The position numbers and the translations under genes are program-made. The notes under the pieces were generated by a model. The model was not told the origin of the DNA, did no database searches, and was given only the letters and a program-made list of their open reading frames with translations. Source: Prauserella halophila (GTDB lineage: Bacteria > Actinomycetota > Actinomycetes > Mycobacteriales > Pseudonocardiaceae). Taken from it: a stretch of DNA of 64,000 nucleotides. The stretch lies in the NCBI RefSeq assembly GCF_024171895.1, contig NZ_JAMTCQ010000014.1, positions 1 through 64,000 on the forward strand, read 5' to 3'. Positions 11,946-34,135 of the stretch are shown here, in pieces. Each line of letters starts with the position of its first letter. The first letter of the stretch is position 1.

Positions 11946-12020
11946 CGCACCGTCACGACTCCGCTGGTCCGAACCGGTCATCGGCCTGTGAACCGGATCT
12001 CACGAACTCGTCTTTTCATC

Positions 12021-12034: not shown

Positions 12035-12051
12035 CGTACGGTTCTCATTCG

Positions 12052-16211: not shown

Positions 16212-17068
16212 CGCGGACCGATCACCGCCATCGTCATCTCGACCGCATCGCCGAGGTGCGGGCGGGCGAGGGCGCCGAGAAGGTCGGCTACCCGATCGGC
16301 ATCCGCACCGTGGAGGTCGTCGGCACCGAACCGGTCGGGTCCGGCCTCATCCGTCTCACCCTCGGCGGGTCCGGATTGGACGGATTCGAGGCCCACGTTC
16401 CCGACGAGCACGTCAAACTCGTCTTCGCCGACCCCGACGGCACACTCCGGCTGCCCGAGCCGAACGGCACCATGCTGTCGTGGCCGCGGCCCTCGCCGAC
16501 GTCCCGGGAGTACACGGTCCGCCGGTTCGACCCCGCGGCGCGGCACCTCGACATCGACATCGCGGTGCACGACGGCGGTCTCGCGGCCGAGTGGGCACGC
16601 ACCGCCCGCGTGGGCGAGCCCGTCCACGTCGCGGGCCCGCCCGGTGGGCTGGTCGTCCCCGACAGTTACGACAAGTACCTGCTCGCAGGCGATATCACCG
16701 CCCTGCCCGCCATCGCCCGGTGGCTCGAGGAGATGCCGCCGAGTGCCGAGGGCTGGGCCGTCGTCGAGGTCGCCGACGCCGGTGAGCAGATCCCGCTCGA
16801 CGGGCCCGACGGCGTCGAGGTCCGCTGGCTCCACCGGGCAGGCGCACGTGCCGGGACCGCCGATCTGCTCGAGCCGGCGCTGCGGTCGCTCCCGGTTCCC
16901 GGTCCGTCCGATGAGGACAGCCTCTACGTGTGGCTCGCCGGTGAGGCGGGCACGCTGAAGCCGCTGCGCCGGTGGGTCCGCGACGAGCTCCGCCTCGCCA
17001 AGGGTGACTACGACATCACCGGCTACTGGAAGCTCGGCATCGCCGACTACGACGACGACCACCACTGA
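16208..17068 (+). CDS. Siderophore-interacting protein, ferric-siderophore reductase
   Basis: 286 residues of the SIP/ViuB family. These flavoproteins reduce the ferric siderophore after import and release Fe(II). SREYTVRRFD is the FAD-binding RxYTxR motif. DIAVHDGGLAAEWARTARVGEPVHVAGPPGG is the FAD domain end, and YLLAGDITALPAIARWLEEMP with WLAGEAGTLKPLRRWVRDEL form the NAD(P)H-binding half. The C-terminal GYWKLGIADYD is typical. The coupling with the ABC importer genes just downstream fits uptake and iron release. Confidence 0.92.
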   Translation: MTRTDHRHRHLDRIAEVRAGEGAEKVGYPIGIRTVEVVGTEPVGSGLIRLTLGGSGLDGFEAHVPDEHVKLVFADPDGTLRLPEPNGTMLSWPRPSPTSREYTVRRFDPAARHLDIDIAVHDGGLAAEWARTARVGEPVHVAGPPGGLVVPDSYDKYLLAGDITALPAIARWLEEMPPSAEGWAVVEVADAGEQIPLDGPDGVEVRWLHRAGARAGTADLLEPALRSLPVPGPSDEDSLYVWLAGEAGTLKPLRRWVRDELRLAKGDYDITGYWKLGIADYDDDHH

Positions 17069-17144: not shown

Positions 17145-18146
17145 ATGTCTCTACTCAGATCCCGCCTCGCCAAGGGCGCGGCCACCGCGGCGACCCTCGC
17201 ACTGACCGTCGGCCTCTCCGCGTGCGGTGCCGCCGGCGGCGAACAGTCCGACGGTGCGACCCGCCAGTTCGAGGCCGACAACGGCACCGTCGAGATCCCC
17301 GAGAATCCCGAGCGCGTCGTCGCCACCGGCTATGCCGTGCCCACGCTGATCGAGGCCGGCGCCCCGCTCGTCGGCATCTCCTCCTGGGAGCGCGGCGAAC
17401 CGCTGATGTCCGACGAGGACCTCACGACCTACGAGGAGCTGCCGCGCATCGCCGGTGAGACCGCGGCGGAGACGAACTACGACGCCATCGCCGAGCAGGA
17501 CCCCGATCTCATCGTCATCGGCGTGCCGAAGCCCATCTTCGGCGAGATCGACGCCGAGCGCCTCGAATCGATCGCGCCCGTGGTGGCCATCGGCCCGAAC
17601 GTGCCGTCGGCGTGGCGGGAGGTCTCCCGCACGCAGGCCGACGCGGCCGGTGCGCTCGAGCAGTTCGACCAGGTCAAGGACGAGTACGACACGAGGGCCG
17701 ACGAGCTGAAGCAGAAGTACGCCGACGTCCTGCCGGATCTGAAGCTGGCCCACGTCGGCGGCTACGGCGAGGTCGAGAACGGCAACTTCCAGCGGGAGTT
17801 CGACGGTTCGTGGGGCACGAACATCGCCAATGACATCGGTGCGCAGTACTACGGCGAGGTCGCCGAGAAGGGCAAGGGTTCCCGCGCGGTCAGCGAGTAC
17901 CCGTCGCTCGAGGAACTGCCTTCGGCCATGCAGGAGGCCGACGCGATCACCTACACCGTCGACCCCGACGGGTCCGCACCCCAGCCCGTCGGGTACGTCC
18001 TCGACTCGAACCTGTGGAAGAACCTGCCCGCGGTGGAAGACGACATGACGTTCCCGGTCAAGTACACCGAGGCGGCGACGTACGGCCAGGCGAAGCAGAC
18101 ACTCGACGCGCTGGACGAGACGTTCGCACCCCTGCTGAAGAAGTGA
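17145..18146 (+). CDS. Ferric-siderophore ABC transporter, substrate-binding lipoprotein
   Basis: 333 residues. An N-terminal lipoprotein signal (RLAKGAATAATLALTVG) ends in the lipobox LSAC with Cys27 lipidated, so it is anchored outside the membrane. The class III binding-protein fold is evident: VEIPENPERVVATGYAVPTLIEAG, IAEQDPDLIVIG, ESIAPVVAIGP, then a long helix (residues about 165-195) linking the two lobes. FepB/FhuD-like. Its substrate is presumably the product of the neighbouring NRPS. Followed at 10 bp by the first permease. Confidence 0.93.
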   Translation: MSLLRSRLAKGAATAATLALTVGLSACGAAGGEQSDGATRQFEADNGTVEIPENPERVVATGYAVPTLIEAGAPLVGISSWERGEPLMSDEDLTTYEELPRIAGETAAETNYDAIAEQDPDLIVIGVPKPIFGEIDAERLESIAPVVAIGPNVPSAWREVSRTQADAAGALEQFDQVKDEYDTRADELKQKYADVLPDLKLAHVGGYGEVENGNFQREFDGSWGTNIANDIGAQYYGEVAEKGKGSRAVSEYPSLEELPSAMQEADAITYTVDPDGSAPQPVGYVLDSNLWKNLPAVEDDMTFPVKYTEAATYGQAKQTLDALDETFAPLLKK

Positions 18147-18156
18147 CGCGACGGCC

Positions 18157-19173
18157 GTGACGAGCGCACCTTCCGCGAATCCGCCCACGGCGAGCACGGC
18201 CCGCCCGGTCGTCCTCGCCGTGGGCGTGATCGCCCTGGTGGCCGCAGGTGCCGTCAGTCTCGCCGTCGGTGCCCGCGCCGTGCCCGTCGGCGAGCTGTGG
18301 CAGGCGCTGGCGGACTTCGATCCGCGGGACGGTGACCACCTGGTCGTCCGCGACATCCGGCTACCGCGGATGGTGCTGGGCATCGCCGTCGGCGCCGCAC
18401 TCGCCGTCGGGGGCGCCCTGATCCAGACGCTGTCGCGGAATCCGCTCGCCGAACCGGGCATCCTCGGCGTCACCCACGGCGCCGGATTCGCGCTCACCGT
18501 GGGCGCCGCGCTGGGCCTGGCCGGCTCGGCGATCTCGCAGCTCGGTCTCGGTGTCGTCGGCTCGGTGCTGGCGACCGCGCTCGTCTACGCCGTCGGCAGG
18601 CATTCCACGCTGCGGCTGCTGCTCGCGGGTGTCGCGTTCTCCGCGGTGCTGATGGGCGTGTCGCTCGGCATCCGGCTCACCTCGCCGGACGCGCTGGACC
18701 AGTACCGGTTCTGGTCGGTCGGGTCGCTGGCCGGACGGGAACAGACCGACCTGACGGTGCCGCTCGTCGCGATCGGCCTCGCGCTCGCCGGCGCGCTGGT
18801 GATCGCACGGTCGCTCAACGCCGTCGCGCTCGGGGACACCGTCGCGCACACGCTGGGCGCCGACGTCGCGCGGGTGCGCACGGTGACGCTGCTGCTGATC
18901 ACCGTGCTGGCCGGCGCGGCGACCGCCGTCGCGGGGCCGATCCTGTTCGTCGGGCTGATCGTGCCGCACCTGCTGCGCAGGCTGACCGCCGGTTCGGTGC
19001 CGTGGCTCGTCGGCCTGTCGGCGCTCGTGGGGCCGATCCTGATGCTCGTGGCGGACACGATCGCCCGCGTGCTGCTGCACACCGGCGAGGTGCCGGTCGC
19101 GATCGTCACCGCCTTCCTCGGCGGCCCGATGCTGATCTGGGTGGTCCGGCGGTACGGGGCGGGGTCACTGTGA
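18157..19173 (+). CDS. Ferric-siderophore ABC transporter permease 1 (FecCD)
   Basis: 338 residues with about ten membrane helices. Family motifs: RDIRLPRMVLGIAVGAALAVGGALIQTLSRNPLAEPGILGVTHGA (FecCD signature), LLLAGVAFSAVLMG, FWSVGSLAGR, and VGLIVPHLLRRLTAG, which is the coupling-helix region contacting the ATPase. FepD-type. GTG at 18157; the stop overlaps a GTG at 19170 that is in frame with the second permease. Confidence 0.94.
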   Translation: MTSAPSANPPTASTARPVVLAVGVIALVAAGAVSLAVGARAVPVGELWQALADFDPRDGDHLVVRDIRLPRMVLGIAVGAALAVGGALIQTLSRNPLAEPGILGVTHGAGFALTVGAALGLAGSAISQLGLGVVGSVLATALVYAVGRHSTLRLLLAGVAFSAVLMGVSLGIRLTSPDALDQYRFWSVGSLAGREQTDLTVPLVAIGLALAGALVIARSLNAVALGDTVAHTLGADVARVRTVTLLLITVLAGAATAVAGPILFVGLIVPHLLRRLTAGSVPWLVGLSALVGPILMLVADTIARVLLHTGEVPVAIVTAFLGGPMLIWVVRRYGAGSL

Positions 19174-19182
19174 CCGACACGC

Positions 19183-19272
19183 AGCAGCCCGACACGCAGA
19201 ACCCCGGAACGCAGAAACCCGGCACGCAGAAACCCGGAACACAGAACCCCGGCACGCAGAACCCCGACACGT
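19183..19272 (+). repeat. 15-bp tandem repeats at the start of the second permease
   Basis: Six units on the theme ACGCAGAACCCCGGC span this stretch. In frame with the permease they would encode NPGTQ/KPGTQ pentapeptides. The array lies between the GTG at 19170 and the GTG at 19293, which has a proper Shine-Dalgarno. It may therefore be an untranslated spacer that happens to be open, or a variable cytoplasmic N-terminal tail. Confidence 0.75.
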
Positions 19273-19292
19273 ATGACGTGAGGGAGACGCCC

Positions 19293-20321
19293 GTGAGCGG
19301 ACGGACCTCGACGGTACGCGTGCCGGTCGGCGACCGCGCGTGGTTCGTCCAGCGCCGCACGATCACCCTCGTCCTGGGCTGCGCCGCGGCGATGCTCGGG
19401 CTCGGGTTCGTCGGCCTGTCCTACGGCACGAGCTGGGCCACACCCGGCGAGGTGTTCGGCGCGCTGACGGGACTGGAACCGTCCGTGGTCATCGCCGAGT
19501 GGCGCGCACCCCGGGTCGTGGCGGGAATCCTGTTCGGCGCCGCACTCGGCGTGGCGGGTGCGATCTTCCAGAACCTGACGCGCAACCCGATGGGAAGCCC
19601 GGACATCATCGGCCTGGACGCGGGCGCCTACACCGGTGCGCTGCTGGTCATGACCGTGTTCGCGGGCGCGTCGATGACCGTCGCGTTCGGATCCGTCGTC
19701 GGCGGGCTGGTCACCGCGGCGCTGGTGTACTCGCTGTCGCGGTCGAACGGCCTGTCGGGCATGCGGCTGGTCGTCATCGGCATCGCCGTCAACGCGATGA
19801 TCACGGCGCTGAACAACTGGCTCGTGCTGCGCGCGGAGCTCGAGGTCGCGATGGCCGCGGTCGGCTGGAACTCCGGGTCGCTCAACGGCATCGACTGGGA
19901 CGACCTGATCCTGCCGTTCGCCGTCCTCTCGGTGCTGCTGACCGTCGCCGCTCTGCGCTCGCAGACGCTGCACCAGTCGGCGCTCGGCGATGCGATCGCG
20001 GTGTCGACCGGAGTGCCGCTGGAGCGGCAGCGGATGCTGATGGTGCTGGTCGGCGTCGGTTGCACCGCGACGGTGACGGCGGTGGCCGGACCGGTGGCGT
20101 TCATCGCGCTGGCCGCGCCGCAGATCGGCCGCAGACTCGCGAAGGCGCCGGGAATCCCGCTGCTGCCCGCCGCACTGACCGGCGCGGTGCTGCTGCAGCT
20201 GGCCGACCTCATCGCGCAGATGCTGCTCGCCCCCGTGTCCCTTCCCGTCGGCGTCGTCACGACGGCGATCGGCGGCGGTTACCTGATCTGGCTGCTCGCC
20301 CAGGAGGTGCGGCGGAGATGA
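19293..20321 (+). CDS. Ferric-siderophore ABC transporter permease 2 (FecCD)
   Basis: 342 residues from GTG at 19293, behind AGGGAG with a 6-bp spacer. That is the usual FecCD length. An alternative start at 19170 (GTGA overlap) would add 41 residues, mostly PGTQ repeats. Motifs: EWRAPRVVAGILFGAALGVAGAIFQNLTRNPMGSPDIIGLDAGA, VIGIAVNAMITALNNWLV, WNSGSLNG, and FIALAAPQIGRRLAKAP (ATPase-coupling loop). FepG-type, forming a heterodimer with the preceding permease. The stop overlaps the ATPase start. Confidence 0.92.
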   Translation: MSGRTSTVRVPVGDRAWFVQRRTITLVLGCAAAMLGLGFVGLSYGTSWATPGEVFGALTGLEPSVVIAEWRAPRVVAGILFGAALGVAGAIFQNLTRNPMGSPDIIGLDAGAYTGALLVMTVFAGASMTVAFGSVVGGLVTAALVYSLSRSNGLSGMRLVVIGIAVNAMITALNNWLVLRAELEVAMAAVGWNSGSLNGIDWDDLILPFAVLSVLLTVAALRSQTLHQSALGDAIAVSTGVPLERQRMLMVLVGVGCTATVTAVAGPVAFIALAAPQIGRRLAKAPGIPLLPAALTGAVLLQLADLIAQMLLAPVSLPVGVVTTAIGGGYLIWLLAQEVRRR

Positions 20322-21091
20322 CCACCCGACTGTCCGCTCGGGACGTGACCCTGAGCTACGGCGAGCGGGTCGTGTCGACCCGGCTCAGCCTCGACGTCCC
20401 CGACGGCGCGTTCACCGCCGTCGTCGGGCCCAACGGCTGTGGGAAGTCGACGTTGCTGCGGGCGTTCGTCCGGCTGCTGAAACCCGGCGAGGGCACGGTG
20501 TCGCTGGATTCCCGTTCCGTGACGGACTTTCCGGCGAAGGCCCTCGCGCGGGAACTGGCATTCCTGCCGCAGGATCCGCTCGCACCCGAGGGCATCACGG
20601 TGCGCCAGCTCGTCGCACGGGGCCGGTATCCGCACCAGTCGCTACTGGCGCTGTGGACCGCGGGCGACGAACGGGCGGTGGCCGAGGCGATGGACACCGC
20701 CGAGGTGGAGGACTTCGCCGACCGGCCGGTGGCCGAGCTCTCGGGCGGGCAACGCCAGCGCGTGTGGGTGGCGATGGTGCTCGCACAGGACACGCCGTAC
20801 CTGCTGCTCGACGAGCCGACGTCCTTTTTGGACATCACGCACCAGTACCGGCTGCTGGCCCTGCTCTCGCGACTGCGGGACGAGGGCCGCACCGTGATCG
20901 CGGTGCTGCACGACATCAACCAGGCGTGCCGGTTCGCCGACCATCTCGTCGCGATGAAGGACGGCCGGGTCGCGGCCGAGGGCGCTGCCGCCGACGTCGT
21001 CGACGCGGCCCTGATCAAGGACGTGTTCGACCTGCCGAGCGTGATCGTCGCCGACCCGGTGAGCGGCACGCCGATGGTCGTCCCCGAATAG
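20318..21091 (+). CDS. Ferric-siderophore ABC transporter ATPase
   Basis: 257 residues, FepC-type. Walker A VGPNGCGKSTLL, Q-loop FLPQDPLAPEGITV, signature LSGGQRQRVW, Walker B LLLDEPT, and H-loop VLHDINQACRF. All catalytic residues are present. ATG at 20318 overlaps the permease stop (ATGA), with AGGAGGT 9 bp upstream. It completes a full importer (lipoprotein, two permeases, ATPase) inside the biosynthetic operon. Confidence 0.96.
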   Translation: MTTRLSARDVTLSYGERVVSTRLSLDVPDGAFTAVVGPNGCGKSTLLRAFVRLLKPGEGTVSLDSRSVTDFPAKALARELAFLPQDPLAPEGITVRQLVARGRYPHQSLLALWTAGDERAVAEAMDTAEVEDFADRPVAELSGGQRQRVWVAMVLAQDTPYLLLDEPTSFLDITHQYRLLALLSRLRDEGRTVIAVLHDINQACRFADHLVAMKDGRVAAEGAAADVVDAALIKDVFDLPSVIVADPVSGTPMVVPE

Positions 21092-21149: not shown

Positions 21150-24100
21150 GTGTTGTCATCGTCGGAACCTGCGGAATCCGCGGCACCTGCCGCCGAGCTG
21201 TTCGAGCTGACCAGCGCACAGCTGGGCATCTGGAACGCCCAGCGCCTCGAACCGGATTCGCCGTACTACGTCGTCGGCGACGTCGTGGAGCTCAGCGGTG
21301 CGGAGCCGGTGGACGTCGCGCGGCTGGCCGAAGCGATGACCGGCACGGTCGGCGAGGCGGAGTCGCTGCGACTGCGGCTGGCCGAGACCTCCGACGGGCC
21401 GCGCCAGTGGGTGAGTGACGAACCGGTGCCCGCGCCGCGGGTGGTCGACGTCAGCGGAGAACCCGATCCGATGGCGGCCGCCGAGGAGCTGGTCGCGCGG
21501 GAGCGGTGCGCACTCGCCGAATCGACGCGCGGCATGACCGGCCGCCCGCTGTACACGCAGACGATCATCACGCTGTCCGCCACGGACGTCCGGTACACGC
21601 AGCTGGGCCACCACCTGGTGTTCGACGGCTACAGCGCGGCGATGCTGGCCCGCCGCACGGCCGCCCGGTACACGGCGCTCGTGCGCGGCGAGGACCCGCC
21701 GAAGTGCCCGTTCAGCCCGTTTGCCGACGTCGTCGCCGCCGACCGAGACTACCTGGCCGGCGACAAGCCCGAGGCCGACCGTGCGTACTGGGTCGACCGG
21801 ATGACGCCGCTGCCGGATCTGCCCGAGTGGACGGCACCCGGTTCCGGTCTCGCGGACACGGTCTCGGCGAGTGCGGAGCTGGGCGCCGAGGACCTGGCCG
21901 AGCTGCGCGCGTGCGCGGACCGGGAGGGCGTCACGTGGGGCGACGCTCTCCTGGCCTGCTACGCGGTGTTCCTGCACCGCGTGCTCGGCCGCAGCGATGT
22001 GCTGTTCGCGTTGCCGTTGATGTGCCGCACCAGCGCGGCGGAACTGCGGACGCCGGCGATGGCGGTGAACGTGCTGCCGCTGCGGGTCGAGGTGCGCGGT
22101 GGCGACACCCTCGGCGTCGTCGCGCGGCGCGTGGCCGGGGAGATGCGCGAGCTGCGCGCCCACCAGCGTTACCGCGGCGAGAACCTGCCGCGCGACCTGG
22201 CGGCTCCGGGTGCCGGGGCGATCCTGCACGGCGCGGGGGTGAACCTGAAGGCGTTCGATCTGACGCTGGATTTCGCCGGTTCGCAGGGCGTGATGCGCAA
22301 CGTCGCGGGCGGTCCGCCGGAGGACATGGGACTGAGCGTGCTGCCGAGCCGCGGCGGCGGACTGCTGCTCGGGTTCGAAGTGGACGCCCGCACCCATTCG
22401 CAGTCCGATGTGGACGCACGGCTCGACGCGGTGCGCTCGATCGTCCGGCAGCTGTCCGCGGATCCGGACCGCACGGCAGGGCGGGTGTCGCTGTTGTCCG
22501 AGGACACCCGGGCCGCCGTGCTCGAGGCGTGGGCGCCGGCCGCGATCCCGGGTGAACCCGCGGCGGTGCCGGACGTCCTGGCCGCGCTGGCGGCGTCCCG
22601 CGGTGGCGACACCGCGCTGGTCTGCGGTGCCGAACGGATTACCTACGCCGAGCTGGCCGCGCGGGTGCACCGGCTCGCGCGGGCGCTGCGGGCGCGCGGC
22701 GCGGGTCCGGACGATCTGGTGGCCGTCGCGCTGCCGCGGTCGGCCGACCTCGTCGTGGCGCTGCTCGCCGCGCTCGACGCGGGGGCGGCGTTCCAGCCCC
22801 TCGACCTCGACCATCCCGATGAGCGCCTGCGCCTGCTGCTCGACGACGCGCGGCCCGCGCTGGTGGTCACCGATCCGGCGCTCGGCCGCAACCTCGGCGC
22901 GTGGTCCACGATCGCCGTCGCCGATGCGGCGAGGTGCGACGACCGTCCACTGTCTACCGGCGAACGGGCACGGCAGCGCAGGCCGGAGGATCTGGCGTAT
23001 CTCATCCACACGTCGGGCTCGACGGGTACGCCGAAGGGTGTGCTCGTGCCCTCGGCGGGTCTGCAGGCGCTGCTGCACCACCAGCGCGCGACGGTCGTCG
23101 CCGAGACCGAACGCCGTGCCGGCCGCAGGCTGCGCGTCGCGCACACGTACTCGTTCGCGTTCGACTCCGCGCTGGACCAGTTGCTGTGGCTGCTGTGCGG
23201 GCACGAACTGCACCTCTACGACACCGACGTCACCAAGGACGCCGACGCGCTGCTGGCCGCCTATGCCCGCGACGCGATCGACGTCGTCGACACCACGCCG
23301 GCCCTGGCCGCACCGCTCGTCGAGGCCGGCCTGCTCACCGGGGCGCACCGGCCGTCGCTGCTCGTGCTCGGCGGGGAGGCGACGCCGCCCGCGCTGTGGC
23401 GTCGCATCGCCGAGTCCGATGTGGACGGTCGCAACATCTACGGCCCCACCGAGGCGACCGTCGACGCGGCCTACGCCGGCATCGACGGCGACACCCCGGT
23501 GATCGGCACACCCCTGGCGGGGATGCGCGCGTACCTGCTGGACAACGCGCTGCAGCCGGTTGCGCCGGGCGCGGTGGGGGAGCTGTACCTCGCGGGGCCG
23601 CAGCTCGCGCGCGGGTACCTCGGCCGGTTCGCCGGTACCGCCGAACGATTCGTGGCCGATCCGTACGGGCCGCCCGGCGACCGGATGTACCGCACCGGCG
23701 ACCTCGCCCGGTGGACTCCCGGGCGCGGGTTCGACTACCTGGGCCGCGCCGACGGCCAGGTGAAGATCCGCGGCCACCGCGTCGAGGTCGGCGAGGTCGA
23801 GGCCGAGCTCGGCGCGCTGCCCGGGGTGAGCGGCGCCGCCGCGACGGTCCGCCGCGATACGGCGACGCCGCGGCTCGTCGGATATGTCGTCCCCGAACGC
23901 GGCGCGGCCCCGGCACCGGACGGGATCCGCGACAGTCTCGCCGAGCGGCTGCCCGACCACCTGGTGCCGTCGGCGGTCGTCGTGCTCGACGAGCTGCCGC
24001 TCACCGTCAGCGGCAAGGTCGACCGCGCGGCGCTGCCCGTGCCGCGCGCCACGACGTCCGGCAGGCCGGCGTCGACCGAACGCGAACGGCTGCTGTGCGC

Positions 24101-27100
24101 CGTCGTCGCCGAGGTGTTCGACCTGGCACCCGACGAGGTCGGCCCGGACGACGACTTCTTCGGCCTCGGCGGCGACAGCATCAGCGCGATCAGCGTCAGC
24201 AGCCGCCTCCGCGGCCACGGGTTCGAGTTGCGTCCGCGCGATCTGCTCGCCCGGCGCGACCTCGCCTCGCTGGCGGCCGGACTGTCCGCATCCGATGACG
24301 ACGCCGTGCCCGCCGTCGCCGACGAACCGGTCGGCACGCTGCCCGCACCGCCGATCGCCCGCGGCCTGCTCGACCCGCATCCCGACCCGGCTTCCGTCGC
24401 GGACTATGCACAGTGGACGGTCGTCACGACGAGCACGCCGCTGGAACGCCCGGCCCTGGTCACCGGGCTCGGCGTCGTCGTGGACACGCACGCCGCGCTG
24501 CGACTGCGGCTGACCGGACGCCGGGAGCTCGAGGTGCGGCCCGTCACGGAGGTCGCCGCCGAGAGCATGGTCTCGACCGCACCCGCAGGCGCCGATCCGG
24601 CCGACGTGGCGCAGCGCCTCGCGGCCGAGCTGGACCCGGTCGCGGGCGAGCTGCTGCGGCTGGCCCTCGTCGGCGACGACCGGCTCGTGATCGTCGTGCA
24701 CCACCTCGTGATGGACGGCGTGTCCTGGCGGGTCCTGCTGCCGGACCTGCGAGCCGCCTGCCGCGGTGACGTGCTCGCGCCCGCGGGCACGTCGTGGCGG
24801 GCGCACGCGCTGGCGCTGGCCGAGCAGGGCGCCTCGGGCGAGCGGCGCGGCGAACTCGACCACTGGCGGGCCGCCGCCGATCCGGCGATCCGGCCGCTCG
24901 GCCTGCCTGCGCTCGACCCCGAGCAGGACACGGTCGCGACGGCCCGCCGCGACGTTACCGTCGTGAGTACGCGGTCGTCGGCCGCCGCGCTGACGTCCCT
25001 GCCCGCGGCGTACCGCACCGGAACCGACGAGGTGCTCCTCGCGGCGCTGACGCTGGCGGTGCAGGCCGTGCGCGCCCGGACACCGGGGGAGGCGCATCCG
25101 CGCCCGGCCGCCGTCGGGATCACGGTCGAAAGCCACGGCCGTGAACCGCTCACGCCCGGCGCGGACCTCTCGCGCACGATCGGCTGGTTCACCGCGGAGT
25201 TCCCCGTGCGCGTTCCCGCCGAGACGCTGCGGACCGATGCGGAACTGCGCGACGCACTGGCGGGCGGCCACGCGGCCGGACGGCTGCTGCGCGCCGTCAA
25301 GGAGGCTCGCCGCGCCGTGCCCGACGGCGGCCTCGGCCACGGCATCCTGCGCCACCTCGACGACGGCGCCGAGTTCGCCCCGGCACCGCCGGAGGTGCTG
25401 CTCAACTACCTCGGCCGGTTCGCCGCGCCGGAGGGCGGCGACTGGCGACTGCCCGAACGCGAGGCCTTCGGAGTCCTCGAACCCGACGGCAAGGCGCTCG
25501 AACAGGTCCTGGCGCTGAACTGCTTCGTCCACGAGCACGGCCCGGACGACGGTGCCGGTGACGCTGCCGGAGACGGTGGCGTTGCCGGAGACGGTGGCGT
25601 TGCCGGCGGTGGTGATGCGGGCGGCGGTCCGCGCCTCGCCGTCGAATGGACCGCCGCGGGCAGGCTCGTCGGTGCCGACCTCCTCGCCGACCTGCAGCGC
25701 GCCTGGTCCGAGGCCCTCGACGCGCTCGCCGCCCACGCCGAACGCCTCGGTCCCGGTGGTGGTGGACTCACGCCGTCCGATCTGCCGCTCGTGTCGCTGA
25801 CCCAGGCCGACATCGACGCGCTCGAACGGCAGCGCCCCGTGTCGGACGTGCTGCCCGCGACGGCGCTGCAGGCCGGGCTGTCGTTCCACACGATGGCCGC
25901 AGGCGAGACCGACGCGGACGTGTACATCGTGCAGGCCGTGCTCACGCTCACCGGCGAACTGGACGAGCGGCGGCTCGCCGAGGCCGCCCGGGAGCTGCTG
26001 CGCAGGCAGCCCGCCCTGCGCGTGCACCTCGCGACGACCGCGGCGGGCGAGGTCGTGCAGGTCGTGCCCGCCGAGGTCGATGTGGACTGGCAGCACGTCG
26101 ACATGTCCACGGTGGACACCGTGGCGGCTGCTTCCGGCGACCCGGATGTCGAGGCGGCGTTCGCCGCGCGGTGCCGCGAGGAGCTGGAGCGGCCGTTCGA
26201 TCCCGAGGTGCCGCCGCTGATCCGGTTCTGCCTCGTCCGGTTCGGCCCGGCCGAGCACCGGCTCGTGCTCACCAACCACCACGCGCTCCTCGACGGCTGG
26301 TCGATGCCGCTGACCGGGCGGACGCTGCTCGGCCTGTATCGCGAACTCGGCGGCGGCCCCGTGGTGGCGCCGTCGGCGTCGCTGCAGGACTACCACCACT
26401 GGCTGGCGGACCGCGACCGCAGTGCGGCACGCGGCGCATGGCGCGACGCACTGTCCGGTGTGGACGAATCGACCCGGCTGGCGCCCGCGACGGCGCGGCG
26501 GGAGGTCGTCCGGCCGCAGGACATCACGCTGGATCTGGGGGAGGAGTTCAGCAAGCGGCTGAGCGCCTTCGCGCGCGACCGGGGCATCACGGTCACCACG
26601 GTGCTGCAGACGGCGTGGGGACTGCTGCTCGGCAGGCTGACCCGTAGGCGCGACGTCGTGTTCGGCTGCCCCACCTCCGGCAGGCCGCCCGAAGTGGACG
26701 GGGTCGAGTCGATGATCGGCCAGCTGGGCAACACGATTCCGGTGCGGGTGCAGTATCGCCCGGATCAGCCGGCGACCGAGCTGCTCGAGGCGGTCCACGA
26801 GGAATCGGTGGCGCTCGCCGAGCATCACCACCTCGGCCTGCCCGACATCCAGCGTGCCGTCGGCGCAGGCGACCTGTTCGACACGATGCTGGTGATGGAG
26901 AACTTCCCGTTCAACGGCGAAGGACTCGCGGTCGACGAGCAGGTCGCACTCGCCGGTGTCGACATCACCGACGCCACGCACTATCCGCTCACCGTCATCG
27001 CGCTGCCCGGCGACACGCTGAGCCTCGTGCTCAGCTACCAGCCGCACGCGCTGTCCGCCGACACCGTGCGCGGATACTCCCGGTGGCTGCACACGCTGCT

Positions 27101-30100
27101 GACCGAACTGGTGGCCGCACCCGACCGGCCCGTCGGCCGGTTGCCGATGCTCGACGCCGGTGAGACGGCCACGGTGCTCGACCAGGGCACGTCCCGTCTC
27201 CCGAAGACACCCCGCGACGGGGTGCTGGAGACGTTCGCCGCGTGGGTGGACCGCACCCCCGAGGCCGAGGCGCTCGTGTGCCGGAGCCGCAGCCTGACCT
27301 ACGCCGAGCTCGACCGGCAGGCCAACCGTCTCGCCCACCGCCTGCTCGACGCGGGAGCGGGGCCGGAGGTGCCGGTCGGGATGCTGCTGGGCCGCGACGT
27401 CGAGATGATCGTCGCGCTGCTGGGCATACTCAAGGCCGGGGCGGTGTACCTGCCCCTCGACCCGGACTACCCGGCCGACCGGCTCGCGTACATGATCGGC
27501 GACGCGCGGCCCGCCGCGTTCGTCACCGACGCCGACGCGCTGGCGCGGCTCGGCGGGCAGGTTCCCGGGGACGGCGTCGTGGTGCGCACGGACGATCCGG
27601 ACGCGCAGGCCGTCGGCAGCGACGACGACCCGGCCGGCGCCCGCGCGGCGCTGACGCCGGATTCGCTGGCCTACATCATCTACACCTCCGGCACCACGGG
27701 AAATCCCAAGGGCGTGGCCGTGACGCACCGCGGCATTCCGGATCTGATCGCGCTGCAGGAAGAGGTCGTCGGGGTCACCGAACGCGACCGCTACCTGCAC
27801 TTCGCCTCGACCAGCTTCGACGTCGCGTTCTGGCAGACGATGGTGCCGCTGGCCTCCGGCGGAACGCTCGTCGTCGCGCCGGAGGAGGTGCGCGTGCCCG
27901 GCGACGAACTGCTCGACTACCTCGCCGAGCACCGGCTGACCGGGGTGAACCTGCTGCCGTCGTTCCTGTCGGCCGTGCCCGAGGACCGCATCGTGCCCGA
28001 CGACGTGTTCTTCGTGGTCGGCGCCGAACGGCTCGACCCGGAACTGGCCGACCGGTGGGGCACGGGCAGGCGCGCGCTGTTCAACGCCTACGGGCCGACC
28101 GAAGTGACCATCAACGCGGTCACCTGGCACTACGAACCGGGCGAGACCGGCGCCGTCCCCATCGGACGGCCGGACCCGAACGTGCGCGCCTACGTGCTCG
28201 ACGACGGCCTGCAGCCCGTCGGCACCGGCGTGGCCGGCGAGCTGTATCTGGCGGGGCCGAAACTCGCCCGCGGTTATCTCGGCAGGCCGGGGCAGACGTC
28301 GCAGGCGTTCGTGGCCGATCCGCACGGCGAGCCGGGATCGCGGATGTATCGCACCGGCGACGTCGTGTTCTGGCGTCCCGACGGGCAGCTGGTGTTCCTC
28401 GGCCGCGCGGATCGGCAGGTCAAGGTCCGAGGGTTCCGCATCGAACCCGCGGAGATCGAGACCGTGCTGACGCGGCATCCCGACGTCCGCGGCTGCGCCG
28501 TCGTCGTGCGGGGCGGCAGGCAACTCGTCGGCTACGTGATCCCGGCCGAGGGTGCGGAATTCGATCCGGTGCGGCTGCGGGAGGACCTGCTCGGACAGCT
28601 GCCCGACCACCTGGTCCCGGCCGCGTTCGTGCGGCTCGACCGGCTGCCGCTCACCCCGGGCGGGAAACTCGACTCCGGCGCGCTGCCCGCACCCGAACAC
28701 GCAGGCGACGGCGCGGGACGGGAGCCGTCGACCCACGCCGAGGAGGTGCTGCTCGGCATCGTCCGGGACGTGCTGGGCGCGGGTGATCTCCGCCTGGAGG
28801 ACCACTTCCTCGACGCCGGGGGCGACAGCATCGTCTCGTTGCAGGTCGTGTCCCGCGCGCGCAGGCAGGGGCTGCGGCTCGGGCCGCGGGACGTGCTCGA
28901 CGGCGGGACGATCGCGGGCATCGCGGCGCGCAGCACTGCCGCAGCGGCGAGTGCCGACGCCGGACCGTCCACAGGGGATGCCCCGCTCACCCCGGTGATG
29001 CGCGACCTGCTCGAGCGCGCACCCGAGCCCGGCGACTTCTGCCAGTGGACCGAGATCTGCGTCCCGGCGGGTGGTGACCTCGCCACGTGGTCGCAGGCCG
29101 TGGACGCCCTGCTGCGGACCCACGACGTGCTGCGGGCCCACCTCGCCGACGCCGGCGACGGTGCGGTGTTGCGGATTCCCGAACCGGGTTCGGTCACCGC
29201 GGCCGACGTGCTCACCCACGTCACGGCGACCGGCGAGGTGCGCGACCTCGTCGACGGCTGGATCGCCGACGTGCGCGGCCAGTTCGACGTCCACCACCCG
29301 CCGCTGGTGCGCGCGCTGTGGGTCGACCGTGGTCCCGGCGAACTGGGCCGGTTCGTGCTCGTGGCCCACCACCTGCTGGTCGACGGCGTGTCGTGGCGGG
29401 TGCTGCTCGACGACCTCGCCGACGCCTACGAGGGCAGGGAGCTGCCCAGGCCCACTCCGTTCCTGGGCTGGGCGCGGTCGCTGGCCTCGGCCGCCCATGC
29501 CCGGGCCGGTGAACTGCCGCACTGGCGCGGCGTCGGGCGCAACCCGCAGAAACGACTCACCCGCACCCGGTTCGATCCGCAGCGCGACACCGGTGCGACG
29601 GCGATGCACCACGAGTTCGCCCTGGACGCCGAGGCGAGCAGGACGCTCCTGACGAGCCTGCCCGCGGCCTACCACGCGACACCCGACACGGTGCTGTTGA
29701 CCGCGCTGACCCGGGCGATCGCCCGCTGGCTGGACCGCGCACCGGACCTGTACCTGGCGCTGGAAGGCCATGGCAGGCACGCGCCCGATCCGGCGGGCGA
29801 GGTCGACCTGTCGCGCACGGTCGGCTGGTTCACCGCGGTCCATCCGGCACGGATCACGCTGCCGGACGGGGACTCGGCCACGCAGCTGAAGGCCGTCAAG
29901 GAGCAGCTTCGCGCTCAGGGGGACGGCCTCGGCCACGGGATCCTTGCCGCGGCAGGACAGGTGAGCCCGGTGCGGCCCGACGTCAGCTGGAACTACCTCG
30001 GCCAGTTCGCCTCGGCGCCCGAGACCGAGCGCGCGTGGCAGGCGCCGCCGGGTTCGGCACCGTTCGGTTCCGGCGGTGACACGCTGCCGATGCCGCACAG

Positions 30101-31775
30101 CCTCATGCTCAACGCGATGACCTGGGATGACGGTGACGGCCAGGCGCTGCACGTACGGGTGACCTGGCCGCGTGCGGTGCTGACCGACGACGACGTCGCC
30201 GGACTGGTGGAGGCGTTCCGGCAGGAACTGACGGCGTTGGCCTCCGATGAGGACGCGCCCGCCGGTGCGGGCCGCACGCCGTCCGACTTCCCGCTCGTGT
30301 CCCTCACCCAGTCCGATGTGGAGGATCTGGAGCGGCGCTACCGCGTGGCCGACGTGCTGCCGCTGAGCCCGTTGCAGGAACTGATGCTGCAGCACTCGCG
30401 GCGGGTTCCCGCGGGCGGCCGCGATCCGTACACGGTGCAGGCAGCGTTCTCGCTGACCGGCCGGGTCGATGTCGACGCGCTGCACGCCGCGGCCTGCGAT
30501 CTGCTGGCCCGGCATCCCAACCTCGGCGCCGCGTTCCCGCCGGGACTCGAGGTGGCGGTGCTGCTCGCCGATGCGGCACCGGACCGCCGCCAGGTCGACG
30601 TCTCGACCGGGGCCGACGTCGACGCCGCAGTCGAGCGAGTGCTGGCCGCCGACCTGGCCGAACCCTTCGACCCGGCCGCGGGCTCGGCCGTGCGGCTCAC
30701 CGTCGTCCGCAGGGCCGCCGACGCGGTCGAACTCGTCCTGACCACGCATCACGTGCTGTCCGACGGCTGGTCGGCGCCGCGCATGCTCGGGGAGATCTTC
30801 GCCGCCTACACCGCGCGCACGGCCGCCGGGAGCGCGGCGCACCTGCCGGAACCGGTCCCGTTCACCCGGTACCTGCGGTGGCTGTCCGAACGCGACCGCG
30901 ACGCCGACGTCGCCGCATGGTCCGGTGAGCTGGCGTCGGTGGACCGGTACGACCGGGCACTGCCCGACATCCCGGCCGCCGACGTGCCTGCCGAGGACCC
31001 GGTGGGCGCCGTGACACCGGAGCCGGTCACGTTCGACCTCGAACCGCAGCTGGTGCGCACGCTCACCGCGGCGGCCGTCGCGTGCGGGATCACGGCCGCG
31101 ACCCTCGTGCAGGGTGCCTGGGCGGCCGTGCTGACGGCACGGAGCGGGCGCACCGACGTCCACTTCGGCACGATGGTGTCCGGCAGACCGCCCGAAGTGG
31201 ACGGTGTCGAGGAGATCATCGGCCTGTTGGCCAACACCGTGCCGGTGCGCGCGAACCTCACCGGCCCGCTCGACGGTGCGCTGCGCGACCTGCAGGACCG
31301 GCAGCAGGCGATGGCCGGACACCACACGGTGTCGCTGTCCGCACTCGAACGCTCGGTGGGTGTGAGACGGCTCTTCGACAGCCTGCTGGTGTTCGAGAAC
31401 TACCCGGTCGACCCGGACCGGCTGGCCGAACCCGCGCCGGGCCTGAGCATGACGGGCATGCGCTTCCGGGAGTTCACGCACCACCCGGTGACGGTCACCG
31501 TGATGCCGGAGGGCGCGGGCTGGCGCGGCATCGTCGCGTGCCGGCCCGGCATGGTGGCCGAGGACGCCGGCACGCTGGCGGCCGCGTTCGAACGCGTGCT
31601 GCGGGCACTGCCGGACGTGCTCGGCGGCGAGGACGGTGCCGCCGCCGGCGGTGAGGCCACGGAGCGCGGGGCGGGAGACGGCAGCGGGACTGCCGAGTCG
31701 GGCGCCGCGGCGCTGGTGCGGCTCGCGGAGCGGTCCCTGCAGGCGGGCCCGGAGCGTGCGGAGTGGGCGGAGTGA
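21150..31775 (+). CDS. Siderophore non-ribosomal peptide synthetase, C-A-T-E-C-A-T-E-C
   Basis: 3541 residues. Domains by motif: C1 (HHLVFDG at 154), A1 (HTSGSTGTPKG near 620), T1 (GGDS, Ser1010), E1 (HHLVMDGVSW at 1184, NYLGRF near 1419), C2 (HHALLDG at 1710), A2 (YTSGTTGNPKG near 2178), T2 (GGDS, Ser2560), E2 (HHLLVDGVSW at 2740), C3 (HHVLSDG at 3200). C1 should accept DHB from the free aryl carrier. Each residue added is then epimerised to the D form. The protein ends about 50 residues after C3 with no A, T or thioesterase, so release or further extension must happen on C3 or in trans. Pocket residues (by alignment to GrsA): A1 D-S-D-D-V-G-I-V-D, acidic, suggesting a basic amino acid; A2 D-V-W-N-F-V-A-I-N, unassigned. 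GTG at 21150, with TTG 21153 possible; GAGGAG just upstream. Confidence 0.95.
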   Translation: MLSSSEPAESAAPAAELFELTSAQLGIWNAQRLEPDSPYYVVGDVVELSGAEPVDVARLAEAMTGTVGEAESLRLRLAETSDGPRQWVSDEPVPAPRVVDVSGEPDPMAAAEELVARERCALAESTRGMTGRPLYTQTIITLSATDVRYTQLGHHLVFDGYSAAMLARRTAARYTALVRGEDPPKCPFSPFADVVAADRDYLAGDKPEADRAYWVDRMTPLPDLPEWTAPGSGLADTVSASAELGAEDLAELRACADREGVTWGDALLACYAVFLHRVLGRSDVLFALPLMCRTSAAELRTPAMAVNVLPLRVEVRGGDTLGVVARRVAGEMRELRAHQRYRGENLPRDLAAPGAGAILHGAGVNLKAFDLTLDFAGSQGVMRNVAGGPPEDMGLSVLPSRGGGLLLGFEVDARTHSQSDVDARLDAVRSIVRQLSADPDRTAGRVSLLSEDTRAAVLEAWAPAAIPGEPAAVPDVLAALAASRGGDTALVCGAERITYAELAARVHRLARALRARGAGPDDLVAVALPRSADLVVALLAALDAGAAFQPLDLDHPDERLRLLLDDARPALVVTDPALGRNLGAWSTIAVADAARCDDRPLSTGERARQRRPEDLAYLIHTSGSTGTPKGVLVPSAGLQALLHHQRATVVAETERRAGRRLRVAHTYSFAFDSALDQLLWLLCGHELHLYDTDVTKDADALLAAYARDAIDVVDTTPALAAPLVEAGLLTGAHRPSLLVLGGEATPPALWRRIAESDVDGRNIYGPTEATVDAAYAGIDGDTPVIGTPLAGMRAYLLDNALQPVAPGAVGELYLAGPQLARGYLGRFAGTAERFVADPYGPPGDRMYRTGDLARWTPGRGFDYLGRADGQVKIRGHRVEVGEVEAELGALPGVSGAAATVRRDTATPRLVGYVVPERGAAPAPDGIRDSLAERLPDHLVPSAVVVLDELPLTVSGKVDRAALPVPRATTSGRPASTERERLLCAVVAEVFDLAPDEVGPDDDFFGLGGDSISAISVSSRLRGHGFELRPRDLLARRDLASLAAGLSASDDDAVPAVADEPVGTLPAPPIARGLLDPHPDPASVADYAQWTVVTTSTPLERPALVTGLGVVVDTHAALRLRLTGRRELEVRPVTEVAAESMVSTAPAGADPADVAQRLAAELDPVAGELLRLALVGDDRLVIVVHHLVMDGVSWRVLLPDLRAACRGDVLAPAGTSWRAHALALAEQGASGERRGELDHWRAAADPAIRPLGLPALDPEQDTVATARRDVTVVSTRSSAAALTSLPAAYRTGTDEVLLAALTLAVQAVRARTPGEAHPRPAAVGITVESHGREPLTPGADLSRTIGWFTAEFPVRVPAETLRTDAELRDALAGGHAAGRLLRAVKEARRAVPDGGLGHGILRHLDDGAEFAPAPPEVLLNYLGRFAAPEGGDWRLPEREAFGVLEPDGKALEQVLALNCFVHEHGPDDGAGDAAGDGGVAGDGGVAGGGDAGGGPRLAVEWTAAGRLVGADLLADLQRAWSEALDALAAHAERLGPGGGGLTPSDLPLVSLTQADIDALERQRPVSDVLPATALQAGLSFHTMAAGETDADVYIVQAVLTLTGELDERRLAEAARELLRRQPALRVHLATTAAGEVVQVVPAEVDVDWQHVDMSTVDTVAAASGDPDVEAAFAARCREELERPFDPEVPPLIRFCLVRFGPAEHRLVLTNHHALLDGWSMPLTGRTLLGLYRELGGGPVVAPSASLQDYHHWLADRDRSAARGAWRDALSGVDESTRLAPATARREVVRPQDITLDLGEEFSKRLSAFARDRGITVTTVLQTAWGLLLGRLTRRRDVVFGCPTSGRPPEVDGVESMIGQLGNTIPVRVQYRPDQPATELLEAVHEESVALAEHHHLGLPDIQRAVGAGDLFDTMLVMENFPFNGEGLAVDEQVALAGVDITDATHYPLTVIALPGDTLSLVLSYQPHALSADTVRGYSRWLHTLLTELVAAPDRPVGRLPMLDAGETATVLDQGTSRLPKTPRDGVLETFAAWVDRTPEAEALVCRSRSLTYAELDRQANRLAHRLLDAGAGPEVPVGMLLGRDVEMIVALLGILKAGAVYLPLDPDYPADRLAYMIGDARPAAFVTDADALARLGGQVPGDGVVVRTDDPDAQAVGSDDDPAGARAALTPDSLAYIIYTSGTTGNPKGVAVTHRGIPDLIALQEEVVGVTERDRYLHFASTSFDVAFWQTMVPLASGGTLVVAPEEVRVPGDELLDYLAEHRLTGVNLLPSFLSAVPEDRIVPDDVFFVVGAERLDPELADRWGTGRRALFNAYGPTEVTINAVTWHYEPGETGAVPIGRPDPNVRAYVLDDGLQPVGTGVAGELYLAGPKLARGYLGRPGQTSQAFVADPHGEPGSRMYRTGDVVFWRPDGQLVFLGRADRQVKVRGFRIEPAEIETVLTRHPDVRGCAVVVRGGRQLVGYVIPAEGAEFDPVRLREDLLGQLPDHLVPAAFVRLDRLPLTPGGKLDSGALPAPEHAGDGAGREPSTHAEEVLLGIVRDVLGAGDLRLEDHFLDAGGDSIVSLQVVSRARRQGLRLGPRDVLDGGTIAGIAARSTAAAASADAGPSTGDAPLTPVMRDLLERAPEPGDFCQWTEICVPAGGDLATWSQAVDALLRTHDVLRAHLADAGDGAVLRIPEPGSVTAADVLTHVTATGEVRDLVDGWIADVRGQFDVHHPPLVRALWVDRGPGELGRFVLVAHHLLVDGVSWRVLLDDLADAYEGRELPRPTPFLGWARSLASAAHARAGELPHWRGVGRNPQKRLTRTRFDPQRDTGATAMHHEFALDAEASRTLLTSLPAAYHATPDTVLLTALTRAIARWLDRAPDLYLALEGHGRHAPDPAGEVDLSRTVGWFTAVHPARITLPDGDSATQLKAVKEQLRAQGDGLGHGILAAAGQVSPVRPDVSWNYLGQFASAPETERAWQAPPGSAPFGSGGDTLPMPHSLMLNAMTWDDGDGQALHVRVTWPRAVLTDDDVAGLVEAFRQELTALASDEDAPAGAGRTPSDFPLVSLTQSDVEDLERRYRVADVLPLSPLQELMLQHSRRVPAGGRDPYTVQAAFSLTGRVDVDALHAAACDLLARHPNLGAAFPPGLEVAVLLADAAPDRRQVDVSTGADVDAAVERVLAADLAEPFDPAAGSAVRLTVVRRAADAVELVLTTHHVLSDGWSAPRMLGEIFAAYTARTAAGSAAHLPEPVPFTRYLRWLSERDRDADVAAWSGELASVDRYDRALPDIPAADVPAEDPVGAVTPEPVTFDLEPQLVRTLTAAAVACGITAATLVQGAWAAVLTARSGRTDVHFGTMVSGRPPEVDGVEEIIGLLANTVPVRANLTGPLDGALRDLQDRQQAMAGHHTVSLSALERSVGVRRLFDSLLVFENYPVDPDRLAEPAPGLSMTGMRFREFTHHPVTVTVMPEGAGWRGIVACRPGMVAEDAGTLAAAFERVLRALPDVLGGEDGAAAGGEATERGAGDGSGTAESGAAALVRLAERSLQAGPERAEWAE
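25550..25625 (+). repeat. Glycine/alanine-rich repeat inside the E1 domain
   Basis: An 18-bp unit, GTTGCCGGAGACGGTGGC or close variants, recurs. It encodes a run of GDGGVA-type repeats at NRPS residues about 1467-1492. It lies between the NYLGRF motif and the last helix of the first epimerisation domain, probably a surface loop. The second epimerisation domain has only a short loop at the same place, so this is a recent expansion. Confidence 0.7.
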
Positions 31776-33214
31776 CGGCGCAGGCGCGCACCGACGACCC
31801 CGGAGGTGCGGCTGCGCAGGAGTCCGGCCGTATCGGCGGCAGACTGCTGGCGATGTCGCTGGTGCTCGTGCTCGGCACGTTCATGGCCTCGCTCGACGCG
31901 ACGATCGTCAACGTCGGCCTGCCTGCGCTGAGCGCCGAGTTCGGTGCGAGCGTGACCGAGGTGCAGTGGGCCAGCACCGCGTACCTGCTGGCGGTGGTCG
32001 CGGCGGCGCCGATGTCGGGGTGGCTGGCGGAACGGTTCGGGGCGCGCCGCGTGTGGCTGGGTGCGGTGACGGTGTTCCTGGCCGGGTCACTGGCGTGTGC
32101 GCTGGCGTGGTCGACGGCGTCGCTGGCCGCGTTCCGGGTGTTGCAGGGACTGGGCGGCGGGCTGTTGCCGCCGACCGGACAGGCGCTGCTGGCGCGGGTG
32201 GCAGGCAGGAGCCGCACCGGCCGGATCATGAGCATCGTGGGTGTGGTGCCGATGCTGGCGCCGGTGCTCGGCCCACTGGCAGGCGGCACGCTGCTGGAGG
32301 TCGCGGACTGGTCGTGGCTGTTTCTGGTGAACCTCCCGGTCGGCGTGGTCGCGATGCTGCTGGCGGTGTGGCTGGTGCCGCGCGTGCCCGCGGCCGAGAC
32401 GGTCTCGCGGTTCGACCTGCGGGGGGCGATGCTGCTCTCGCCCGGGCTGGCTGCGGTGCTGTTCGGCCTCACCGACATCGGCTCCGAGGAGCGCAACCCG
32501 CCCATGGCGGTGACCGCGCTGGTGGTGGGATCCGGGCTGCTCACGGCGTTCCTGGTGCACGCACTGCGGTCGGACCGGACGCCGCTGGTCGACCCGCGGT
32601 TGCTGCGCACCCCACCGGTCGGCGCCGCGGTGCTGGCGCTGTTCGTGGCTGCGGCGTCGGTGTTCGGCACGATGTTCCTGTTGCCGATGTATCTGCAGTC
32701 GGGGCGCGGGCTGTCGGCGTGGGACGCGGGGCTGATGCTGGCACCACAGGGCGCCGGCGCGGTGCTGGGGTCGTTGCTCGTGGTGAAGCCGCTGATCGAC
32801 CGGGTGGCGCCGCGCACGATCGTGGTCACCGGGTTCGCGCTGATCATCGCGGCGACGGTGCCGCTGACCCAGCTCGCCGACCTCACCGACGGCGGGCTGA
32901 TCGCGACGCTGCTCGTCCGCGGCCTGGGCACCAGCATGATCGCCTCGCCGGTGATGACGATCGTCTACACCGCAGTCGAGCAGGAGCTGCTGCCGCGGGC
33001 ATCGAGCGCGCTGAGTCTCGTCAACTACGTCGGCGGGGCGATCGGCACCGCGGGCCTGGCTGTGCTGCTGGAACTGCGCCTCGCCGCGACGGGCGACGTC
33101 GCGGCCTCGTTCGGCGAGGCGTTCTGGTGCGTGGTCGGGCTGTGCGTACTGGCCCTCGCCGGCGCGCTCCGGCTTCCCCGGGCGGGTCAGCGGAGGGTGG
33201 CGCCGCGGCGGTAA
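31763..33214 (+). CDS. MFS exporter, DHA2/EmrB type, probable siderophore efflux
   Basis: 483 residues with 14 predicted membrane helices. Motif A-like GWLAERFGARRVWLGAV, motif C-like GVVPMLAPVLGPLAGG, and LGTFMASLDATIVNVGLPAL (the helix 1 motif of DHA2 antiporters). The GTG at 31763 has GGAG 8 bp upstream and overlaps the NRPS 3' end by 13 bp; a second in-frame GTG at 31772 overlaps the stop as GTGA. As last gene of the operon it most likely exports the finished siderophore. Drug efflux cannot be excluded from sequence alone. Confidence 0.88.
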   Translation: MGGVTAQARTDDPGGAAAQESGRIGGRLLAMSLVLVLGTFMASLDATIVNVGLPALSAEFGASVTEVQWASTAYLLAVVAAAPMSGWLAERFGARRVWLGAVTVFLAGSLACALAWSTASLAAFRVLQGLGGGLLPPTGQALLARVAGRSRTGRIMSIVGVVPMLAPVLGPLAGGTLLEVADWSWLFLVNLPVGVVAMLLAVWLVPRVPAAETVSRFDLRGAMLLSPGLAAVLFGLTDIGSEERNPPMAVTALVVGSGLLTAFLVHALRSDRTPLVDPRLLRTPPVGAAVLALFVAAASVFGTMFLLPMYLQSGRGLSAWDAGLMLAPQGAGAVLGSLLVVKPLIDRVAPRTIVVTGFALIIAATVPLTQLADLTDGGLIATLLVRGLGTSMIASPVMTIVYTAVEQELLPRASSALSLVNYVGGAIGTAGLAVLLELRLAATGDVAASFGEAFWCVVGLCVLALAGALRLPRAGQRRVAPRR

Positions 33215-33364: not shown

Positions 33365-34135
33365 TCAGCGGAGGGTGGCGCCGCCGTCGACGTAGAGCTC
33401 CTGCATGGTCACGTGCCGGGCGCGGTCCGAGGCGAGGTAGAGGACGGCGTCGGCGACGTCCTCCGGGTCGGCGATGCGCCGCAGCGGAATGCCGACCCGG
33501 TAGTTCTCCGGATCGCCGTTGAGCACCGGCTCGGGGCCGCCGCCGTCGTGTTCCCACATGGCGCGCTGCATGGGCGTGTCCGTCGATCCGGGGCAGACGA
33601 CGTTGCAGCGGATGCCGTGATCGGCCAGTTCCAGGCCCAGCGATTTGGTGAACATGGTCGCTGCGGCCTTCGACGCCGCATACGCTGCCATGCCCCGCCG
33701 CGGCACGCCGCTCGCGTTCGACGACACGGTGACGATGCTGCCGCGCTCCCGCTCGATCATGCGCGCGCTCACGGCCCGCGACATGTGGAACACGCCCGTG
33801 GTGTTGACCCCGAACGTGAACTCCCAGTCCTCGTCCGTGTACGACGCGACGGGTCCCTTCACCAGGATCCCGGCGACGTTGGCCAGGACATCGACGGCGC
33901 CGACGGTCGCTTCCGTCCTCGCGACGACGTCGTCGACCTGTGCCGAGTCGGTCACGTCGCAGGCCATGCCCGTGATGGCCGGTTCGTCGGCATACGTCTC
34001 GGCGACGCCGGGCGAGCGGTCCGTCGCCACCACCGTGGCACCCGCGTCGCGCAGTGCCCTGGCCACGGCGGCGCCGATTCCCTGGGCTGCGCCCGTGACC
34101 ACAGCGACCTTGCCGGCGAATTCGTGCTGATCCAC
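33365..34135 (-). CDS. dhbA: 2,3-dihydro-2,3-dihydroxybenzoate dehydrogenase
   Basis: 256-residue short-chain dehydrogenase. It oxidises the isochorismatase product to DHB with NAD+. [16 protein letters not shown] is the nucleotide-binding TGxxxGxG. NVAGIL, the Ser of VTVSSNASG and YAASKAA (YxxxK) make up the active site. [26 protein letters not shown] is typical of DhbA/EntA. GTG at 34135 follows AAGGAG by 4 bp. It supplies the one DHB enzyme missing from the + strand operon and completes the pathway. It has its own promoter region (34136-34256), where I see no iron box. Confidence 0.92.

Follow-up and report, generated by a model that had tools for sequence, protein, structure and literature searches.

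The window (the whole 64,000-nucleotide stretch of Prauserella halophila DNA analyzed here) contains genes for both the synthesis and the activation of 2,3-dihydroxybenzoate (DHB). On the forward strand, an isochorismate synthase of the EntC/DhbC type (12242..13441; PF00425, 2.6e-72; TIGR00543, 255 bits, over the cut-off) is followed by a 2,3-DHB adenylate ligase of the EntE/DhbE type (13507..15138, start approximate), which scored 658.6 bits with TIGR02275, below the strict cut-off of 723.55. Next come an isochorismatase (15135..15809, start approximate; PF00857, 5.5e-41) resembling EntB without its own carrier domain, as it has no PP-binding match, and a stand-alone aryl carrier protein (15835..16095; PF00550, 6.4e-10). 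Genes for iron uptake follow on the same strand: a siderophore-interacting ferric reductase (SIP; 16208..17068; PF04954/PF08021), a ferric-siderophore substrate-binding protein (17145..18146; PF01497, 1.8e-8), two FecCD-type permeases (18157..19173, PF01032, 4e-82; and 19170..20321, start approximate, PF01032, 3.5e-73), and the ABC ATPase of an iron-siderophore importer (20315..21091, start approximate; PF00005), which is FecE-like but below that model's cut-off. The 2,3-dihydro-2,3-DHB dehydrogenase (EntA/DhbA) lies apart on the reverse strand (33365..34135; TIGR04316, 337 bits against a cut-off of 300). A search for IdeR-type iron boxes with up to 3 mismatches found none in the window. Upstream of the DHB genes, positions 9254-12200 hold open frames without a Pfam match (four scanned).

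The importer genes are followed by a nonribosomal peptide synthetase (NRPS) encoded by a single open reading frame on the forward strand (21150..31775; 3541 aa), whose parts and order can be read directly from the DNA: C1-A1-T1-E1-C2-A2-T2-E2-C3. Pfam recognized five condensation-family, two AMP-binding and two PP-binding stretches. A whole-genome search with PF00668 placed the condensation and epimerization stretches at 21201-22517 (C1, a starter domain that the tree described below assigns to a DHB-Arg clade), 24405-25232 (E1), 25842-27173 (C2), 29076-30005 (E2) and 30348-31457 (C3); E1 and E2 both fall in the epimerization clade of the tree. The adenylation domains A1 (22641..23840) and A2 (27297..28502) have the specificity codes DSDDVGIVDK, predicted to select arginine, and DVWNFVAINK, predicted to select N5-formyl-N5-hydroxyornithine (fhOrn). 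By Pfam, family scan and tree, the last domain of the protein (C3; 30348..31607; HHVLSDGWSAPR) belongs to a dedicated condensation-domain clade; it retains the catalytic motif HHVLSDG. The Pfam match of C3 ends at model position 375 of 456, so its C-terminal part is divergent, but C3 is collinear with whole solved condensation domains (phmmer, 1.3e-37 to McyB, query 15-404 on chain 11-402). An AlphaFold model of C3 built from nine sequences was weak (mean pLDDT 66). The domain order and the intact last condensation domain proposed in a sequence-only reading of this DNA were thus confirmed by Pfam, phmmer and the motif. That reading also held that an exporter comes next and that nothing resembling A, T or a thioesterase follows C3; indeed, positions 31461-31772 have no Pfam match, and the next gene encodes an MFS exporter (31763..33214, forward strand; TIGR00711, EmrB-type, 287.6 bits against a cut-off of 230.2), whose likely GTG start at 31772 overlaps the NRPS stop. 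Opposite the NRPS, an antisense frame of 3442 aa is open (21156-31484, reverse strand), which we take as an effect of the 72-76% GC content and not as a gene.

An NRPS that stops on a domain normally needing a partner could be a remnant left by decay or by an assembly error, the latter an eventuality that the sequence-only reading had named as able to overturn it. In a first survey of 60 genomes (our own and 59 relatives), C3 was present at 75-87% identity in all six other genomes of the genus. We then scanned contigs with an alignment of nine C3 rows and retained 80 of 106 relatives. Three of these (L151-L153) match at 35-37% identity and continue past the match for another 633, 885 and 125 residues; we excluded them from the counts, which leaves 77 loci close to C3 (47-87% identity). 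No domain follows C3 at 76 of these loci, the exception, L148, being cut by a contig end, and the stop lies 15-53 aa past the matched part of C3 in the same number. The motif HH[VL]LSDG is present in 77/77, and an MFS homolog starts on the same strand within 400 bases of the NRPS stop in 72/77. The genera named among the carriers are Prauserella, Saccharomonospora, Actinosynnema, Saccharothrix, Saccharopolyspora, Amycolatopsis, Actinokineospora, Tamaricihabitans, Streptomyces, Actinacidiphila, Actinomadura and Pilimelia, plus one metagenome-assembled genome. Because relatives across the genus and beyond end in the same way, we rejected truncation or misassembly, which now has a negligible probability. 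The terminal condensation domain is common to dozens of species, apparently including a known mirubactin producer. A plasmid search with C3 returned 353 records, all below 60% identity, and a DNA search of E. coli with C1 gave no match.

We next considered the family as a whole, using 72 proteins longer than 3000 aa: 69 come from the 77 loci, and the others from the window, genome G027 and L042, the last sharing its locus with L127. The exact order C1-A1-T1-E1-C2-A2-T2-E2-C3 was found in 66 of them; in the remaining six a hit is doubled, and in one of those C1 gave no hit as well. The A1 code follows D[SA][DE]D[VI]GxV[DT]K in 72/72, with acidic residues that would fit a basic substrate. The A2 code is DVWNFVAINK in 56/72, with variants in the rest. 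The window NRPS is 58.6% identical over residues 4-3494 to the NRPS of G027, which we infer to be the mirubactin synthetase of Actinosynnema mirum. The latter has the same full domain order, including the terminal condensation domain, and its codes (A1 DSDDVGAVDK, A2 DVWNFVAVNK) each differ from those of the window by one residue. The genes for EntC, EntE, SIP, the binding protein, FecCD, the NRPS and the exporter occur in the same order at both loci (the G027 exporter was read by eye). The 59% identical EntA homolog (an SDR) is placed differently, upstream of EntC in G027 and after the exporter on the opposite strand in the window. Full-length orthology, domain order, A-domain codes, the DHB genes of the window, and an ornithine hydroxylase and a formyltransferase elsewhere in the genome all point to the window NRPS being a mirubactin/chlorocatechelin-type synthetase. 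Chlorocatechelin, from Streptomyces, belongs to the same compound family as mirubactin according to one report (PMC9609785). It differs in its chlorinated DHB, and the likeness drawn here is by compound only. The system is therefore known in kind, a further member of a widespread siderophore family.

The same report traces the mirubactin A cluster to A. mirum and lists m/z 605.2 and 658.1 for mirubactin A; mirubactin C, a fragment of A minus one DHB and minus the guanidine, has both ornithine units in the D form, said to match A (PMC9609785). We computed 605.220 for DHB2-Arg-fhOrn and 658.132 for its iron form, so the reported mass agrees with a free acid of this composition. The position of the second DHB, as an acylguanidine, is taken in part from that text. 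We therefore expect the window to direct production of mirubactin A or an analog, presumably DHB-D-Arg-D-fhOrn whose guanidine bears another DHB. The sequence-only reading had counted one DHB per chain, with two or three chains, or extra ligand groups, needed to coordinate iron fully, and had offered oligomerization by C3 as one outcome. Neither a single DHB per chain nor oligomerization is supported, since one compound at m/z 605.2 is reported for the closest relative with a known product (PMC9609785), and dimers or oligomers are not needed because a single chain would carry the second DHB on its guanidine.

In the assembly scheme that we propose, DHB would be made and activated by the enzymes of the window and carried on the free aryl carrier protein. 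C1 would place it on arginine, which E1 would convert to the D form; C2 would join DHB-D-Arg to fhOrn, and E2 would convert fhOrn to D. The mature free acid, acylated a second time on the arginine guanidine, would offer two catechols and one hydroxamate per chain. The fhOrn enzymes and an MbtH protein would be supplied from another contig. Contig 5 of the same genome encodes a formyltransferase, an ornithine hydroxylase and an MbtH protein side by side. Orthologs of the first two are present in 6/6 congeners (the G001 hydroxylase in two pieces), and MbtH adjoins the hydroxylase in all three genomes checked (our own, G003 and G005). The fhOrn genes are likewise far from the NRPS in G027, and within the stretches around the 77 related loci a formyltransferase was found in 10 and a hydroxylase in 5. 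The Tamaricihabitans genome G024 has no close formyltransferase (best match 34%), and its locus (L092) alone has an A2 domain that reads DVANLVCINK; these two features together fit the reading of A2 as an fhOrn domain.

A separate module encoded elsewhere was another explanation put forward in the sequence-only reading. Among the six congeners, G002, G003 and G005 have all five of their condensation-family matches inside this NRPS, while G001, G004 and G006 have 12, 17 and 11 matches. Since half of the congeners thus lack any other condensation-domain protein, a missing downstream module is unlikely; in the same three genomes, the hydroxylase and formyltransferase have been kept without any other such protein. 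Nor did A-domain searches of our genome and these three congeners reveal a partner A-T(-TE) gene. At the strict cut-off, G002 has one A domain outside the NRPS, in a 1316-aa frame, and G005 one, in a 1312-aa frame that encodes a Pls/PosA-family protein. G003 has three: in a 1363-aa frame (Pls/PosA), in a 1312-aa frame, and in an A-only protein adjoining aminotransferase and A-PKS-aminotransferase frames. In our own genome there are seven: a second NRPS accounts for six and an A-carrier-aminotransferase protein for the seventh; the 14 PF00668 matches of this genome all fall in the window NRPS and one other NRPS system. The second NRPS (G000:C1:1205506-1229848; L037, L038) has six modules in two frames, of 3082 and 5130 aa, has a thioesterase of its own and adjoins an MbtH gene; the A-carrier-aminotransferase protein, on contig 4 (L214:709-4383, reverse strand; 1224 aa), carries AMP-binding, carrier and aminotransferase domains.

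These searches bear on the idea that C3 joins the chain to an additional module or to some small free amine. Glidonin offers a precedent for free nucleophiles at the end of an assembly line, a condensation domain of its last module accepting free putrescine (PMC10587159). The intact catalytic motif of C3 and the lack of a carrier domain after it would suit such a reaction. However, the mass of mirubactin A fits a free acid, and three congeners have no other condensation-domain protein, which makes this idea improbable.

To place C3 among condensation domains, as the sequence-only reading had suggested, we built an IQ-TREE phylogeny of 85 domains, including 11 C3 rows. The C3 rows form their own clade (100/100), which joins (99/99) C2 and other condensation domains mostly placed after an epimerization domain; the nearest neighbors are thus mostly D-accepting domains. 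A long-branch warning from IQ-TREE concerned the epimerization and starter rows and not C3, and FastTree agreed on C3, supporting the wider join at 0.73. The wider clade also holds abTE187_C2 and the third condensation domain of Htb, neither of which is preceded by an epimerization domain, which weakens the case for D selectivity of C3. The terminal condensation domain of erythrochelin-type synthetases lies elsewhere, in a separate clade with L-type domains (100/100). The synthetase of G018, which we take to be the erythrochelin synthetase EtcD, resembles the window NRPS in being a siderophore NRPS that lacks a thioesterase and ends in a condensation domain. These two likenesses would favor a role for C3 in oligomerizing or cyclizing chains that share iron, or in closing a diketopiperazine as is said to occur in erythrochelin. 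The reported product of the family is nevertheless a monomer, and C3 lies outside the erythrochelin-type clade, leaving this role very improbable. Erythrochelin-like cyclization by C3 was rejected, both trees being against it.

C3 also has residues of its own. In 28 of its columns, one residue is present in at least 73 of 78 rows and is rare among 72 C2 and 18 other condensation domains, and R3211, R3438 and R3440 are each present in 78/78 C3 rows. Such private invariant columns imply that C3 has been conserved for a distinct role. We regard it as an evenly balanced question whether the C3 rows represent a separate class of condensation domain with a reaction new to such domains, either D-selective hydrolytic release, acting with E2 in place of a thioesterase, or acylation of a guanidine. 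Among the matches listed in literature searches by title and abstract opening, which covered few subscription papers, none described a test of this terminal condensation domain.

In the guanidine alternative, family and product would be the same, but C3 would transfer a second DHB, supplied by the aryl carrier protein, to the arginine guanidine of the T2-bound peptide, with release left to water or a general hydrolase. The product does need a second DHB transfer, C3 co-occurs with the Arg-type A1 code in all 72 long family members, and the PF00668 search of our own genome found no free-standing condensation domain to perform the transfer; the private invariant residues, including the three arginines, also count in its favor. 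On the other hand, C3 groups with peptidyl-accepting domains and not with the DHB-accepting C1, and the uniform D configuration of fhOrn would go unexplained. Heterobactin provides a further objection. The synthetases L199 and L201, presumably of the heterobactin HtbG type, share the C1-A1-T1-E1 start, a related A1 and nearby DHB and uptake genes with the window, but read C-A-T-E-C-T-A-C-A-T; the C-T-A arrangement of module 2, the third module and the final T are all absent from the window NRPS. They have no terminal condensation domain of the C3 type and no thioesterase, yet heterobactin A reportedly carries the same acylguanidine, which would then be made without C3. A literature search for heterobactin together with guanidine found nothing. 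We consider this alternative as a whole possible but rather unlikely.

The sequence-only reading found no thioesterase in the window, and this was borne out for PF00975, none of whose 13 matches in the genome lies there. It had also set the locus apart from the EntF/DhbF scheme. In EntF and DhbF, a C-terminal thioesterase closes a trilactone; the window NRPS shares their DHB starter logic but has no C-terminal thioesterase, and the distinction was upheld. Our genome encodes one strong free-standing type II thioesterase, and similar matches were found in G003 (33%), G004 and G006, so a thioesterase may act in trans in these four. No match at 1e-20 was found in G001, G002 or G005, and a type II thioesterase lies near the NRPS in only 1 of the 77 loci.

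Natural variants of the family are informative on this point. In G217 and G330, genomes from the same taxonomic order as the window, an NRPS with the domains C1-A1-T1-E1-C2-A2-T2 runs directly into a TesB-type hotdog thioesterase, with neither E2 nor C3. Both proteins (L184, 2062-10932, forward strand; L188, 9042-18035, reverse strand) are kin of the window NRPS in both modules, the A2 of L184 being 59% identical and that of L188 having the code DVWNFVAVNK, and both genes adjoin kin of the window aryl carrier protein (60-68% identical). These two are the thioesterase-ended relatives seen with this second module, and the A2 code comes from one of them, L188. We know of no described case of a fused TesB-type thioesterase ending such NRPSs, and none appeared by title or abstract opening among the literature matches listed. 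Other relatives end in thioesterases too: E1 is combined with an alpha/beta thioesterase in L185, L198, L200 and L205, and L186, L187, L189 and L193 lack E1 and have a thioesterase at the end (L189 and L193 read from tails). Every variant read, except the Htb-like ones, has a visible release domain where the mirubactin-type family has C3.

Because the variants carry release domains and the genus does not conserve a type II thioesterase, this comparison makes release the preferred task of C3. Configuration points the same way: epimerization domains equilibrate epimers, and a residue that is uniformly D suggests a D-selective step after E2. We thus favor, on comparative sequence grounds, D-selective release over guanidine acylation. 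C3 would take the D-peptidyl thioester from T2 as its donor and release it by hydrolysis, standing in for a thioesterase, although hydrolysis is, to our knowledge, not an established reaction of bacterial condensation domains. For the reaction of C3 taken by itself, release has roughly an even chance, guanidine acylation is a tentative second candidate, and some other reaction is less probable again. The account as a whole, namely a mirubactin/chlorocatechelin-type synthetase, a free-acid product with two DHB groups, and C3 as the releasing domain, is probably correct.

An odd-looking gene thereby finds its place in a widespread siderophore family, and both chain release and the route of the second DHB to the guanidine become testable. 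Among relatives that share the DHB-Arg start, the terminus may be E2-C3, a fused TesB domain, an alpha/beta thioesterase (there with different second modules) or a bare carrier; these provide natural controls for domain swaps and point mutants. Three further NRPSs from the same taxonomic order (L202, L203 and L204; ~4500 aa) combine a DHB-Arg-type start with a subsequent, unusual C-T-(C-like)-A arrangement and a terminal thioesterase.
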